From assembly GCA_028242535.1 (NCBI GenBank), contig JAOJYB010000004.1, positions 1 to 64,000 of the forward strand: 64,000 bases of DNA, given 5' to 3'. This DNA comes from Candidatus Nitrosopelagicus sp. GTDB taxonomy: Archaea; Thermoproteota; Nitrososphaeria; Nitrososphaerales; Nitrosopumilaceae. Below are positions 20,291-31,141 of the stretch, piece by piece. Position numbers and translations under genes: made by a program. Numbering within the stretch: the first letter of the stretch is position 1; every line of letters begins with the position of its first letter. The notes under the pieces were generated by a model that was not told the origin of the DNA, made no database searches, and saw only the letters and a program-made list of their open reading frames with translations.

Positions 20291-22842
<2,552 letters not shown>

Positions 22843-22861
22843 AATTTTTACGACTAATTAA

Positions 22862-22893
22862 TGGTTAACCACAAATTTTATACAAGTTAACGC
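22862..22893. promoter_or_regulatory. Divergent bioA/bioB promoter with candidate biotin-repressor-like operator
   Basis: Two GTTAAC-containing arms, 'TGGTTAACC' (22862-22870) and 'AGTTAACGC' (22885-22893), are separated by 14 bases. The architecture is like the BirA operator (two ~9-base arms spaced 14-15). The bioA TATA box lies between the arms, and a 'cttattta' box for bioB abuts the right arm, 27 bases before the bioB ATG. A repressor bound here would block both directions. No BirA is in the window. Confidence 0.45.
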
Positions 22894-22921
22894 TTATTTA
22901 CTGAATTTTTTAATTTCGAAT

Positions 22922-23902
22922 ATGCAAAATCAAATTGAATTAATCTTAGAGTGTAAAAATAGAGTACTTACCAAGCGGGGTTTAACCGAAGAAATGACAA
23001 ATGAGTTATTCAATGTAGAAAACAAAGTTTTGAGTCAATTATCAGACGCTGCAAACGAGATTACCAGAACATTTCAAGGATCAAAGATAGACGTTGAACA
23101 ATTAGCAAATATCAAAAAAAATTATTGTAGTGAAGATTGTACTTTTTGTAGTCAATCAGCATTTTTTGATACAGGAATTGACAAGTATCAATTAATGTCT
23201 GCTGAAGAGGTAGTAAAACAGGCAACAGATGCAAAGAAAGCAGGCGCACATTCATACTGTTTAGTTGCAGCATGGAGAGAACCGTCTAATGACGATTTCA
23301 AGAGAGTGTGTCACATAATTGAAGAAGTTAATAAAAAAGTAGGCATTTCTATTGAATGTAGTTTAGGATTTCTAACAATTCAACAGGCAGTAAAATTGAA
23401 AGAATTAGGCGTAATTAGGTATAATCATAATTTAGAAACATCTGAATCAAAATTTCCAGAAATTTGTACAACTCATACATATCAAGATAGAATTGATACA
23501 TTGCATACAGCAAGAAACGCTGGATTAGAGCTTTGTACGGGCGGGATAATAGGAATGGGAGAAACAAGAAAACAAAGAGAAGAATTAGTACATGCCATAT
23601 CTAAACTCAATCCAGAAGAAGTTACAGTAAACTTACTTGTACCATTTCCAGGTACACCTTTAGAATTACAAACCCCATTAAGCTTAGAAGAAATATTGCG
23701 AGTATTTGCAGTTTTGAGGTTTTTACTTCCAAAAAGCATCATAAAAATTTCTGGTGGCAGAGAAGTTAATCTGAATGACGATGGAAAAGAATTACTTCTA
23801 AGTGGGGCTAATGGGATTATCAGTGCAGGATATCTAACACTTGATGGAAACTCAATGCAAAAAGATGTTAAAATGATAAAAGAGATTGATCTTGAAGCCT
23901 AA
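22922..23902 (+). CDS. bioB: Biotin synthase (radical SAM)
   Basis: BioB inserts sulfur into dethiobiotin. The radical-SAM cluster motif is C69, C73, C76 ('NYCSEDCTFCSQ'), followed by 'SYCLVAAWREPS', 'RYNHNLETSESKFP' and 'GGIIGMGETRKQREELVHAI', all BioB signatures. 'KISGGREVNL' near the end supplies the Arg that holds the [2Fe-2S] cluster. The length of 326 is normal. It is divergent from bioA and overlaps bioF by 17 bases. Confidence 0.96.
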   Translation: MQNQIELILECKNRVLTKRGLTEEMTNELFNVENKVLSQLSDAANEITRTFQGSKIDVEQLANIKKNYCSEDCTFCSQSAFFDTGIDKYQLMSAEEVVKQATDAKKAGAHSYCLVAAWREPSNDDFKRVCHIIEEVNKKVGISIECSLGFLTIQQAVKLKELGVIRYNHNLETSESKFPEICTTHTYQDRIDTLHTARNAGLELCTGGIIGMGETRKQREELVHAISKLNPEEVTVNLLVPFPGTPLELQTPLSLEEILRVFAVLRFLLPKSIIKISGGREVNLNDDGKELLLSGANGIISAGYLTLDGNSMQKDVKMIKEIDLEA

Positions 23903-25022
23903 ATTTGGCACACTTGAAAAAAAATTAAGTGTAATTAAGAAAAATAATCTATTAAGAAATCTTCAAGACAGTAAAGTTGAAAAACAATTCATTGAACAAA
24001 ATGGGAAAAAATTACTAAATTTTTCATCTAATGATTATCTTGGAATAACTCCAAGTAAAATTAGATATGCACAATTTCAATCAAGTTCAAGACTTGTTTC
24101 AGGAAATGACTCTAGTTTTTCTATTCTTGAAAAGAAATTATCTAAACATAAATCACAAGAAAAAACAATAGTTTATCCCACAGGATACATGGCAAACATT
24201 GGAGTAATTTCGACATTAGCAAGTAAGCAAGATACAATATTCAGTGATGAGTTAAACCATGCAAGTATTGTTGAGGCATGTAAATTATCGAGTGCAAAAA
24301 TTAAGATTTTCAAACATAACGATATGAATGATTTTGAAAGAAAAATTAAGAAAACAAATGGGAAAAAATTTTTGGTTACTGAAGGAATATTTAGTATGGA
24401 TGGAGATTGGTCAAAATTAGACGAAATAATAGAGATTTCAGAGAAAAAAGACATCATAACAATATTAGATGATGCCCATGGAGATTTTGTTTTAGGAAAA
24501 GATGGGAAAGGAACTGCTAATTTTTTCAATGTCGAAAAGGAAATCGACATGTACATTAGTAGTCTTAGTAAAGGATTAGGAAGTTTTGGCGGATATGTAT
24601 CTGGTAAAAAAAGTCTAATAGATTTATGTATAAACACATCAAAGACTTTCATATACACATCAGCATTACCTGCGTCCATCAATCAGTATTCACTACAAAG
24701 ATTTGATTCAAATCGTGAAGCATATAGAAAAAAATTATGGAAAAAGATTAATCAATTCCATCATAGATTAAATGAAATAGGATTTACAACAAGATCTAAC
24801 AGTCAAATAATTCCAATAATTATAGGTAATGAAAAAAAAGCAACGGATGTTTCAAAATTTTTAAAAAGTAAAGGAATTTTTGCACAAGCAATAAGATATC
24901 CAACTGTAAAAAAGAATCAAGCACGCATAAGAATTTCAATTACAGGATGGTTATCGGAAAAAGAGATAGAATATTCAATACAGATTTTAGAAAAAGCAAA
25001 AAGAAAATTTAAACTAAAATGA
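23886..25022 (+). CDS. bioF: 8-amino-7-oxononanoate synthase
   Basis: BioF condenses pimeloyl thioester with alanine, a PLP reaction and first step of the ring-forming pathway. 'FSSNDYLGITPSK' is the glycine-side motif, 'LDDAHGDFVLG' binds the PLP ring, and the lysine is in 'SSLSKGLGSFGGYVSG'. Translation probably starts at TTG 23886 inside bioB; TTG 23892 is also possible. With bioA, bioB and bioD the pathway from pimeloyl thioester to biotin is complete here; pimeloyl-making genes (bioC/bioH, bioI, bioW) are not seen. Confidence 0.94.
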   Translation: MILKPKFGTLEKKLSVIKKNNLLRNLQDSKVEKQFIEQNGKKLLNFSSNDYLGITPSKIRYAQFQSSSRLVSGNDSSFSILEKKLSKHKSQEKTIVYPTGYMANIGVISTLASKQDTIFSDELNHASIVEACKLSSAKIKIFKHNDMNDFERKIKKTNGKKFLVTEGIFSMDGDWSKLDEIIEISEKKDIITILDDAHGDFVLGKDGKGTANFFNVEKEIDMYISSLSKGLGSFGGYVSGKKSLIDLCINTSKTFIYTSALPASINQYSLQRFDSNREAYRKKLWKKINQFHHRLNEIGFTTRSNSQIIPIIIGNEKKATDVSKFLKSKGIFAQAIRYPTVKKNQARIRISITGWLSEKEIEYSIQILEKAKRKFKLK

Positions 25023-25199: not shown

Positions 25200-25928
25200 G
25201 TGGTAGAAGTTTCGATACTTATTGCATTTTTGGCAGGAATAGGATCATTTTTTGCTCCATGTATCATACCCATGGTTCCAGCATTTTTGGCATATATTTC
25301 AGGTACAACATTATCAGAAGTCAAAACAAAAGAGAATGTTATCTCAATTAACAAGTCAAATGTACTTCTAAATTCAATATTTTTTGTACTCGGGTTCTCA
25401 GTAGTATTTTCAGCATTAGGGGTTGCAATAAATTCAATTTTTTATGAAAATGCAAATCAGGTTGTATCAGAATTTAATCAAATTGGAGGAATAATCATAA
25501 TAGGTTTTGGGACATACATGATTCTAAGCCATAAAATTCGTATACTCAATATTGAAAAGAAAATATTCCCAAAAAGCGTAGGAGTTAGATTTCCAGTGTC
25601 ATTTTTGTTTGGAATGGCATTTGCAGCAGGATGGACACCATGCGTAGGACCAATATTAGGTACAATAATCACTCTTGCAGCAACAACTCCTGGAATTGCA
25701 TTCAATCTACTACTTGCCTATTCCATAGGAATGGGAATACCATTTATGATAATGGGCGCATTAATTTCGAAATCAAGTAGGATAATTTCAAAAGTTGGAA
25801 AACATTTGAAATACTATACAGTGCTTTTTGGAATAATAATAATTATACTTGGAATACTAGTATTCTTCAATCAATTAGTTTTAATTGCAAACTTTCCAAT
25901 TCTAAATGATTTATTACTGTTGAGTTGA
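25200..25928 (+). CDS. ccdA: CcdA/DsbD-type transmembrane thiol transporter
   Basis: The 242-residue protein starts with GTG and has six hydrophobic segments. The two Cys that shuttle electrons across the membrane are in 'FFAPCIIPMVPAFLAY' and 'AGWTPCVGPILGTI', the CcdA hallmark. It would carry reducing power from cytoplasmic thioredoxin to extracytoplasmic thioredoxin-like proteins for cytochrome c or disulfide chemistry. The next gene starts one base after its stop and encodes a likely partner. Confidence 0.9.
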   Translation: MVEVSILIAFLAGIGSFFAPCIIPMVPAFLAYISGTTLSEVKTKENVISINKSNVLLNSIFFVLGFSVVFSALGVAINSIFYENANQVVSEFNQIGGIIIIGFGTYMILSHKIRILNIEKKIFPKSVGVRFPVSFLFGMAFAAGWTPCVGPILGTIITLAATTPGIAFNLLLAYSIGMGIPFMIMGALISKSSRIISKVGKHLKYYTVLFGIIIIILGILVFFNQLVLIANFPILNDLLLLS

Positions 25929-25929
25929 A

Positions 25930-27018
25930 ATGAAAAAGGAATACAAGTATGCATCAATATTTTTTGTAATAATTACAATTGGAACAATTTCTATTTCTTA
26001 TTTTTATGATGAGGTTGATCTAAAAAGAAATACAACTGATGACACAATTGTATCTGATAAAAAATTTCTCAGAATTTCTCCAGAGTTAAAAGAGGTTTCA
26101 GGGTATATCAATACCTCTTCAGAAGAAATTAAACATCTGATAAATGGAAATGTGGTTCTTTATGATTTTTGGACATATAGTTGTATAAATTGTATCAGAA
26201 CCCTACCATACCTTACAGCATGGGACGAAAAGTATGGGGATCAGGGATTAGTAATTGTAGGAATACATACTCCCGAATTTGAATTTGAAAAGGAATATGA
26301 AAATGTAGTTTTTGCAACTAAAAAATTTGGAGTAAAGTACCCAGTGCTACAAGATAATGAAAAAGAGATTTGGAATGATTTTAAAAATAGATACTGGCCA
26401 AGAAAATACATTGCAGACCATGAAGGATACATCAGATTTGATCATATTGGAGAAGGAGCATATAAAGAAACAGAAAAAGTGATTCAATTACTTTTAGCAG
26501 AGAGAGCAGAAATAACTGGTAAAACACTAGAAAAAAAGAATTTTGTCGAACTAAGTGAATTTGAACATGCACCAATCCGTACTCCAGAATTATACTTTGG
26601 ATTTAGTTTTGCAGAAGGAAGGAACCAATTAGGAAACGAAGAAGGATTTTCAAAAAATAAAGTCGTGACTTACCAATTACCCGAACAATTCCGAGAACAT
26701 TATTTCTACATGGAAGGAATGTGGAAAAACAATAATGATGGAATGATGTTAGTTTCAGATTCAGGAAAAATTGTACTAAATTTTAAGGCTAAACAAGTTA
26801 ACATTGTTGCATCAAATGAAGCAGTATTGAAGATTACATATGATGGGAATCTTATGTCACCAGAGATTAGAGGGGATGATGTTTTACCAGATGGAACGGT
26901 CAATATTTCAGAGCCGAGATTATACAACTTGATTGAATCCACCCAAGAAGGATTACATGCGATTGTTATAGAAATAGAAAATCCTGGATTTGAGGTATTC
27001 ACGTTTACTTTTGGATGA
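25930..27018 (+). CDS. DipZ-like thioredoxin-domain protein
   Basis: A membrane anchor (about residues 5-22, 'YASIFFVIITIGTISISYFY') is followed by a TlpA/redoxin domain with the active site 'YSCINCIRTLPYLTAW' and 'VIVGIHTPEFEFEKEYENV', a DipZ signature. The last 150 residues form a beta-rich region ('LYFGFSFAEGRNQLGNEEGF') like the C-terminal domain of DipZ. In mycobacteria these parts are fused to CcdA; here CcdA is a separate gene one base upstream. The active domain should face the outside. A terminator-like hairpin lies 33 bases after the stop. Confidence 0.88.
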   Translation: MKKEYKYASIFFVIITIGTISISYFYDEVDLKRNTTDDTIVSDKKFLRISPELKEVSGYINTSSEEIKHLINGNVVLYDFWTYSCINCIRTLPYLTAWDEKYGDQGLVIVGIHTPEFEFEKEYENVVFATKKFGVKYPVLQDNEKEIWNDFKNRYWPRKYIADHEGYIRFDHIGEGAYKETEKVIQLLLAERAEITGKTLEKKNFVELSEFEHAPIRTPELYFGFSFAEGRNQLGNEEGFSKNKVVTYQLPEQFREHYFYMEGMWKNNNDGMMLVSDSGKIVLNFKAKQVNIVASNEAVLKITYDGNLMSPEIRGDDVLPDGTVNISEPRLYNLIESTQEGLHAIVIEIENPGFEVFTFTFG

Positions 27019-30110: not shown

Positions 30111-30118
30111 TATATAAG
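30111..30118 (+). promoter_or_regulatory. TATA box of the uL3 ribosomal operon
   Basis: A strong 'tatataag' is centred 31 bases before ATG 30146, placing the RNA 5' end about 5 bases before that codon. This rules out the in-frame GTG at 30119. It is the only clear promoter seen before the 16-gene operon. Confidence 0.7.
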
Positions 30119-30145
30119 GTGGTTAACGATACTTTTCATTTATCC

Positions 30146-31141
30146 ATGGGACATAGAAAACGCAGTCAACCAAGAAGAGGAAGCTTAGCATATTCTCCCA
30201 GAATACGTGCAAAAAGTATGGAAGCACGAGTTCGTGCATGGCCAAAAATAAACAGTGAAGAGCCAAGACTACTCGCACATGCAGGATACAAAGCAGGATG
30301 TGTACAATTGGTCAGTATTGACGACAGAGAGCATACACCAAGTCATGGAAAACAACTTGTAACAATTGGAACAGTCATTGCAACACCACCAATTACAATA
30401 GTAGGGATTAGAGGATATTCAGTAGATACTAATCATACAAGAAATGCAGAATTTGATTCATTTGCAAAAGATTTACCAAAAAATGTACAAAATAATTTAA
30501 AAATTAAAACAGAAGGAACCCCAATTGATGAAGCAGAAAAACATTTGAGAAAAATTAAAGAGATTTTTGCAATAGTCACAACAACCCCAGGAGATGTTAA
30601 TTTAGAGATGAAAAAACCATATATTTTTGAGGTTAAAGTCGAAGGTGGGGATATACCAAAACAATTTGCATTTACTAAAGAACTTTTAGGAAAAACTGTC
30701 AAAGTAGACGAAGTTTTTCAAAATGGAACATATGTCGATACTGCAGCAATTACAAAAGGAAAAGGTTGGCAAGGGGTAATTTACAGATGGGGAGTAAAAA
30801 GAAAACAACACAAATCAAGAAAGACCGTCAGAGAAGTGGGTTCATTAGGTCCAATTTCGCCACAAAGTGTCATGTATACAGTTCCAAGAGCAGGGCAGAC
30901 AGGATTTCATCAAAGAATTGAATATGATAAAAGAATAATGATAATGAGTAATACAGAAAAAGAAGAATATAAAATAAATCCTGACGGAGGATTCAAACAC
31001 TTTGGAAATGTTACAGGAGATTTTATAATTGTAAAGGGATCAGTACCAGGGACATATAGAAGATTAATCAAACTTAGAAAACAAATTAGAAATGAACCAA
31101 AAAAGGTAGTCAAACCAAACGTATTGGAGGTTGTAATTTAA
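30146..31141 (+). CDS. rpl3: Large ribosomal subunit protein uL3
   Basis: uL3 nucleates assembly of the 50S subunit. The archaeal/eukaryotic form begins 'GHRKRSQPRRGSLAYSPR' and has 'GITKGKGWQGV'-like 'AITKGKGWQGVIYRWG' and 'QTGFHQRIEYDKRI'. Length 331 matches archaeal uL3. The reading frame extends 27 bases upstream, but the promoter position fixes ATG 30146. It is the first gene of the operon and its stop overlaps the uL4 start by one base. Confidence 0.96.
   Translation: MGHRKRSQPRRGSLAYSPRIRAKSMEARVRAWPKINSEEPRLLAHAGYKAGCVQLVSIDDREHTPSHGKQLVTIGTVIATPPITIVGIRGYSVDTNHTRNAEFDSFAKDLPKNVQNNLKIKTEGTPIDEAEKHLRKIKEIFAIVTTTPGDVNLEMKKPYIFEVKVEGGDIPKQFAFTKELLGKTVKVDEVFQNGTYVDTAAITKGKGWQGVIYRWGVKRKQHKSRKTVREVGSLGPISPQSVMYTVPRAGQTGFHQRIEYDKRIMIMSNTEKEEYKINPDGGFKHFGNVTGDFIIVKGSVPGTYRRLIKLRKQIRNEPKKVVKPNVLEVVI

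Follow-up and report, generated by a model that had tools for sequence, protein, structure and literature searches.

The gap between the divergent bioA and bioB genes of this Candidatus Nitrosopelagicus genome contains what is, on the evidence of its sequence and retention in relatives, a real and conserved BirA-type operator, an element of known kind in a new place. Its two arms very probably serve as an operator bound by BirA, the Group II biotin protein ligase of this cell, which would shut bioA-bioD and bioB-bioF together. A biotin-repressor operator at this position had been proposed in a previous sequence-only reading, and that idea is supported here with a corrected placement of the TATA boxes. 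The window referred to below is the whole analysed stretch of 64,000 nucleotides.

Layout of the bioA-bioB region

The candidate operator, composed of two arms and a spacer, occupies positions 22862–22893 and is assigned to neither strand. This stretch reads AATGGTTAACCACAAATTTTATACAAGTTAACGCTT in the window. The assignment rests on the sequence itself, on comparison with shuffles and on retention in relatives. The left arm contains the hexamer GTTAAC at 22864–22869, within a 7-mer GTTAACC that extends to 22870. The right arm contains the same hexamer at 22886–22891, within a 7-mer AGTTAAC that starts at 22885. The arms had been described as 14 bases apart, which is correct for the 7-base arms; the hexamers are separated by 16 bases. 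Across 22 genomes of the genus, neither hexamer varies, while no column of the spacer is constant.

The site is flanked by two divergent gene pairs. On the minus strand, bioA (21505–22833) encodes a class III aminotransferase (PF00202). Comparison with relatives moves its probable start from 22842 to the second ATG, at 22833, in agreement with where the gene begins in those genomes. The bioD gene (20813–21508, minus strand; PF13500) overlaps the end of bioA and is presumed to share its transcript. On the plus strand, the biotin synthase gene bioB (22922–23902; PF04055 and PF06968) is overlapped at its end by a gene for a bioF-like aminotransferase (23886–25022, plus strand; PF00155), again presumably on the same transcript. 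Beside bioD lies a 182-residue ORF of unknown function (20291–20839), also found near bio genes in G041 and G059. The two genes after bioF (25200–27018), which by eye we take to encode a CcdA-like and a thioredoxin-like protein, are kept near the bio cluster in five of the six relatives' loci read.

The most likely position of the TATA boxes is on the outer side of the arms. A probable bioA box, TTAATTA (22855–22861, minus strand), adjoins the left arm, and a probable bioB box, TTATTTA (22894–22900, plus strand), adjoins the right arm. Each is centred 25 bases from the ATG of its gene, at 22833 and 22922, respectively. Both are predicted from position, and the bioA box also from partial conservation in the genus. 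The motif GCTTA.TTA beside the right arm is retained by all 22 congeneric genomes, whereas the A+T block beside the left arm (on the minus strand TTAATTAG, TTATTTAG, TTATTAAT and alike) is less strictly kept. In the sequence-only reading the bioB box touched its arm, as it does here, and the bioA box lay between the arms. The latter placement is rejected because the TATA-like stretch of the spacer is not conserved among the 22 genomes. In other families (G091 and G141; loci L081, L088 and L392), an A+T block, TTTATTTA or TTTTAATTA, is located within the operator spacer. The position of the operator with respect to the TATA box may have moved between families, and the layout with a TATA box inside the spacer may hold in families such as those of G091 and G141.

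The distance from arm to start codon in the window is 36 bases on each side (22869 to 22833 and 22886 to 22922); in other members of the genus these distances are somewhat different. Together with the 25-base distance of the block centres, this symmetry suggests that the bioA and bioB transcripts are leaderless and arise from a mirror-image promoter pair.

Conservation of the site upstream of bioB

The pattern GTTAAC-N14..18-GTTAAC occurs once in the window and in none of 100 dinucleotide shuffles of it. Lone GTTAAC is not enriched in the window, with 10 copies observed against 12.8 expected. In the whole genome the paired pattern is present at two places. The non-bio copy lies within a long ORF and is rejected as a further target. 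A backward-read control pattern is found at seven places in the same genome. Because the control is commoner, mere presence of the pattern is weak evidence, and the case rests on place and conservation rather than on rarity.

Matches to bioB with E values of 3e-30 or better were obtained in 93 genomes, and the 300 bases upstream of bioB were taken from 90 of them, leaving out G065, G090 and G128. A site was defined as arms GTDAACY and RGTTHAC, 13–15 bases apart, within 170 bases of bioB. Exact sites within that distance are present in 66 of 90 genomes and in 0 of 1800 shuffles; with one mismatch permitted, the counts are 71 of 90 and 2 of 1800. Read by eye after this scoring, G090 has a site and G128 has none. 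The arms vary by genus, taking the forms GTTAAC/GTTAAC, GTAAAC/GTTAAC, GTAAAC/GTTTAC and GTGAAC/GTTCAC, among others. The comparison of relatives that had been proposed as a check thus finds the arms kept well beyond the genus, at 71 of 90 bioB upstream regions. As expected of a BirA operator, the site is a conserved element of the regulatory region ahead of biotin genes.

These counts bear on whether two palindromic GTTAAC hexamers simply fell together in an A+T-rich gap. The expected frequency of the lone hexamer in the window and the excess of the backward pattern in the genome, seven places against two, would suit such an origin. The shuffle results and conservation at the same place across genera, a finding that would refute chance, make it vanishingly improbable.

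In a wider search, the two-arm pattern is present in 88 of 151 genomes, at one to three places in each. No genome-wide enrichment is seen in the window's genome or across the 151 genomes, where counts resemble those of the backward control. Other single matches in relatives are rejected as regulon members; of the six examined, which leave out L165 in G043, five lie inside ORFs, the exception being that of G090. In three genomes of genus g15 that have no site before bioB (G061, G044 and G088), no bio site was seen by eye before bioA either.

BirA as the candidate regulator

A family search of the genome, whose assembly is 81% complete, turned up a single biotin protein ligase, on a contig other than the window's. 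The protein is composed of an N-terminal HTH_11 domain (PF08279; 50.7 bits, residues 14–65), a catalytic BPL_LplA_LipB domain (PF03099; 85.4 bits) and a C-terminal BPL_C domain (PF02237; 36.2 bits), the latter two both above cut-off. It therefore has the catalytic and C-terminal domains and the winged helix of a Group II ligase. Solved chains named BirA, which we take to be those of E. coli and S. aureus, match residues 21–323 and 14–324 of its 335 residues and so reach into the N-terminal domain. Taken by itself, the N-terminal stretch of 73 residues gives weak matches to solved BirA chains, with E values of 0.014 to 0.054. BirA is the only strong HTH_11 match in this 81% complete assembly, scoring 53.5 bits against 22.2 bits for the next protein.

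A search for a BirA with a winged helix had been suggested, and the sole ligase found carries HTH_11. Arms lost in relatives and a ligase without a DNA-binding domain had been named as the outcomes that would undo the proposal. The arms are kept beyond the genus and the ligase carries the domain. Five further genomes of the same genus (G006, G007, G013, G015 and G023) possess a full-length HTH ligase and have no bioB-strength match. They represent either assembly gaps or biotin auxotrophs retaining the regulator.

Co-occurrence of the site and the intact helix

Ligase sequences were obtained for 64 of the 90 scored genomes; the other 26 are outside the helix counts. Under the first helix motif rule, 44 genomes have an intact helix and a site, 5 an intact helix without a site, 2 a lost helix with a site, and 13 neither. 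The two genomes with a site and a lost helix, G039 and G133, read SRVAVWKS and SRASIWKS. The last motif position was then dropped, and the rule was loosened this once, after the two misses had been seen. The loosened rule gives 46, 5, 0 and 13 genomes in the same order, with a Fisher p of 6.5e-10 that ignores kinship.

A second family, f8, displays the same relation. The bioB search matched 57 of 61 genomes and 30 bioB loci were read; the ligase search matched 51 of 61, and 30 loci were fetched. The site is present in eight of nine genomes with an intact helix and in none of 18 without one. The ninth intact-helix genome, G199, has a two-mismatch version of the site. Three of the 30 bioB loci are outside these counts for lack of a ligase match, one with a site (G182) and two without (G168 and G204). 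The 18 include G202 and G159, which retain the ligase domain, show an altered helix motif by eye and lack the site; both had been counted as domain-bearing before their sequences were read. For five genomes (G191, G194, G175, G165 and G188), absence of the helix was judged solely from where the match starts and how long the frame is. G141, G111 and G120 belong to both the first set and the f8 set.

In the pooled table of 88 genomes, into which the f8 states were entered by hand, 52 genomes contain both helix and site, 6 the helix only, none the site only, and 30 neither. The site is thus present only with an intact-helix BirA, in 52 of 58 genomes with the helix and 0 of 30 without, and loss or decay of the DNA-binding domain goes with absence of the site. 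By rule, the six genomes with an intact helix and no bio site comprise five in three genera of the window's family, and G199. G088, judged from a full-length ligase alignment, is probably a seventh.

A bioB tree implies at least 10 changes of the helix and at least 12 of the site. It provides four independent pairs on well-supported branches, or 10 if all branches are used. Among the four, the site goes with the helix in 3.5 on average and never the opposite, with a median p of 0.125; the tree-aware tests of helix against site agree in direction and are not significant. The residue after 'SR' in the helix also pairs with the right arm. Valine occurs with GTTAAC in 28 of 29 genomes, alanine with GTTTAC in 10 of 11 and glutamate with GTTCAC in 3 of 3, the remaining three of the 46 genomes being mixed. 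Residue and right-arm base have each changed only twice on the tree.

A regulator other than BirA could occupy the arms, the BirA helix then being retained for some other purpose. Three genera do include genomes, five in all, that have the helix and no bio site, and a full two-arm site also precedes rpl3, a gene without an obvious biotin link. Against this stand the complete absence of sites without an intact helix among the 88 genomes, the lack of a second strong HTH_11 match among the HTH_11 proteins searched in the 81% complete assembly, and the fit of the spacing, and in part of the arms, to the BirA consensus (PMC545781). Another regulator is therefore unlikely, and binding by BirA remains the preferred reading.

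A related element upstream of rpl3

Apart from bioB, the two-arm pattern recurs at one place in the 151 genomes, directly upstream of an ORF beginning MGHRK or MGARK...PRRGS, which we take to encode ribosomal protein uL3 (rpl3). By rule, 78 of 88 regions yielded a start codon; four of the ten misses were inspected again, and by eye two genomes were added. Full two-arm sites are found in 17 of the 78 upstream regions and in 0 of 3900 shuffles, with invariant hexamers and a variable spacer. They are distributed over five genera (g4, g12, g14, g15 and g19) and are stronger evidence than single arms.

In the window, a TATA box followed by a single GGTTAAC arm (30113–30127, plus strand) lies upstream of the rpl3 ATG at 30147. 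Full sites stand at this place in the five other genera, and a link of the single arm to BirA is putative. By rule, a single GGTTAAC just after the rpl3 TATA box is present in 16 of 20 genomes of the window's genus. GGTTTAC takes its place in g6, g8 and g21, and neither a single arm nor a full site is seen before rpl3 in g9, g20, g23 and others. The single-arm rule was set after the sequences had been seen; the shuffle comparison covers the full sites.

The rpl3 elements, seen in the window and upstream of rpl3 in relatives (e.g. L154, L155 and L157), are found only in intact-helix genomes, where this could be checked. Among 55 genomes with data on both, 35 possess both helix and rpl3 element, 10 the helix only, 0 the element only, and 10 neither. 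When a bio site or an rpl3 element is counted, the numbers become 45, 0, 0 and 10. In the first set, the five genomes that combine an intact helix with no bio site (G043, G044, G061, G076 and G046) all have an rpl3 element, in four cases a full one. On the tree, the relation of helix to rpl3 element is poorly supported, at 1.5 of 4 pairs.

A general core promoter element, rather than a regulator site, would also place arms next to TATA boxes. The arms do abut probable TATA boxes, GGTTAAC follows the rpl3 TATA box in many genomes, and the two-arm pattern does not exceed its backward control genome-wide. The pattern is nevertheless rare, being confined to one to three places in 88 of 151 genomes, and arms are missing before bioB where the ligase has no intact helix. 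TATA plus GGTTAAC as a general element is rejected: in a search of 14 genomes, perfect matches to the composite TATAATGGGGTTWAC were confined to rpl3 and were found there in 9. A core promoter role of the arms is accordingly very improbable, and a regulator site is retained as the explanation.

A possible second target at rpl3 is unexpected. Tentatively, and with rather more doubt than confidence, BirA might in this archaeal family have a further role at the rpl3 operon and so couple the making of ribosomes to biotin or carboxylase status; in some genera (g14, g15 and g17) this could be its main or only DNA-binding job after loss of the bio operator. If BirA does bind there, ribosome production would be under the influence of a vitamin sensor, a result that specialists would not expect.

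In G061, a genome without a bio operator, a 282-residue ORF (L155:11432-12280) is located between bioB and bioF; by eye it is presumably a look-alike of TrmB-type regulators. Its relative G044 (L156) contains no ORF of more than 130 residues between the two genes.

BirA of B. subtilis fails to bind one half of its own operator (PMC4016012), an argument against BirA occupying the lone rpl3 arm in the window's genus. S. aureus BirA has been observed on a half-site oligonucleotide (PMC6391492).

Proposed mechanism of joint repression

The mechanism is carried over by analogy from bacterial BirA. When biotin is plentiful, BirA loaded with biotinyl-5'-AMP as co-repressor would dimerise and place its two winged helices on the two arms. 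Since the two arms adjoin the probable TATA boxes of the two divergent promoters, one on each side, a single dimer would block both, excluding TBP and TFB by steric hindrance. Both bioA-bioD and bioB-bioF would then be off together. When biotin is scarce, unbiotinylated carrier protein would consume the adenylate, so that the dimer falls apart and both operons come on. In B. subtilis, BirA requires both biotin and ATP to bind its operators (PMC4016012).

This proposal names a specific regulator and operator of biotin synthesis that can be put to the test, in an archaeal group for which no described biotin control was found in the open-licence literature. The mirror-placed promoter pair illustrates how a single repressor dimer of bacterial type might turn off two archaeal promoters simultaneously.

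Comparison with known systems

A 2002 paper by Rodionov, Mironov and Gelfand reportedly states in its title that the BirA regulatory signal is conserved in Eubacteria and Archaea. By that title the signal is said to occur in Archaea, as it is proposed to do in the window. The year precedes the first thaumarchaeal genomes. The open-licence literature found on thaumarchaeal biotin control, as far as accessible, contains no report of a bioA-bioB site or of a described control, and that on BirA and ribosomal proteins contains no report of an rpl3 site or link. A study of N. gargensis bioABD shares thaumarchaeal bio genes with the window and names BirA as the usual pathway regulator; in its main text the words 'operator', 'repressor' and 'intergenic' have 0 occurrences (PMC6138646).

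The ligase itself has a parallel in an analysis of BPL and BirA evolution (PMC3199775). According to the text available, ligases that have the N-terminal domain and ligases that lack it occur side by side among prokaryotes, including archaea, the domain has been lost many times, and some BPLs retain it minus conserved positions. Domain presence is patchy there as it is here; unlike here, its loss was not tied to operators, and 'Thaumarchaeota' has 0 occurrences in that text.

In E. coli, a single operator lies between the divergent bioA and bioBFCD, a layout that the window resembles. The published BirA operator consensus is TTGTAAACC-[N14/15]-GGTTTACAA, with inverted arms before biotin genes (PMC545781). 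The earlier remark that the spacing matches the BirA plan is borne out, as the N14 of the window equals the consensus spacing. The window arms agree with the bacterial 9+9 consensus at 12 of 18 positions, and the relative G050 contains TTGTAAACC-N14-GGTTTACAA letter for letter (18 of 18). A B. subtilis half-site primer also contains a GTTAAC-type arm (PMC4016012). Like E. coli bioO, B. subtilis bioO and the predicted delta-proteobacterial sites, the window site consists of two inverted arms with a spacing of N14/15 before biotin genes (PMC545781). It differs from the bacterial operators in having archaeal promoters on both sides, GTTAAC in both arms, a weak match outside the core, and an arm type that varies by genus.
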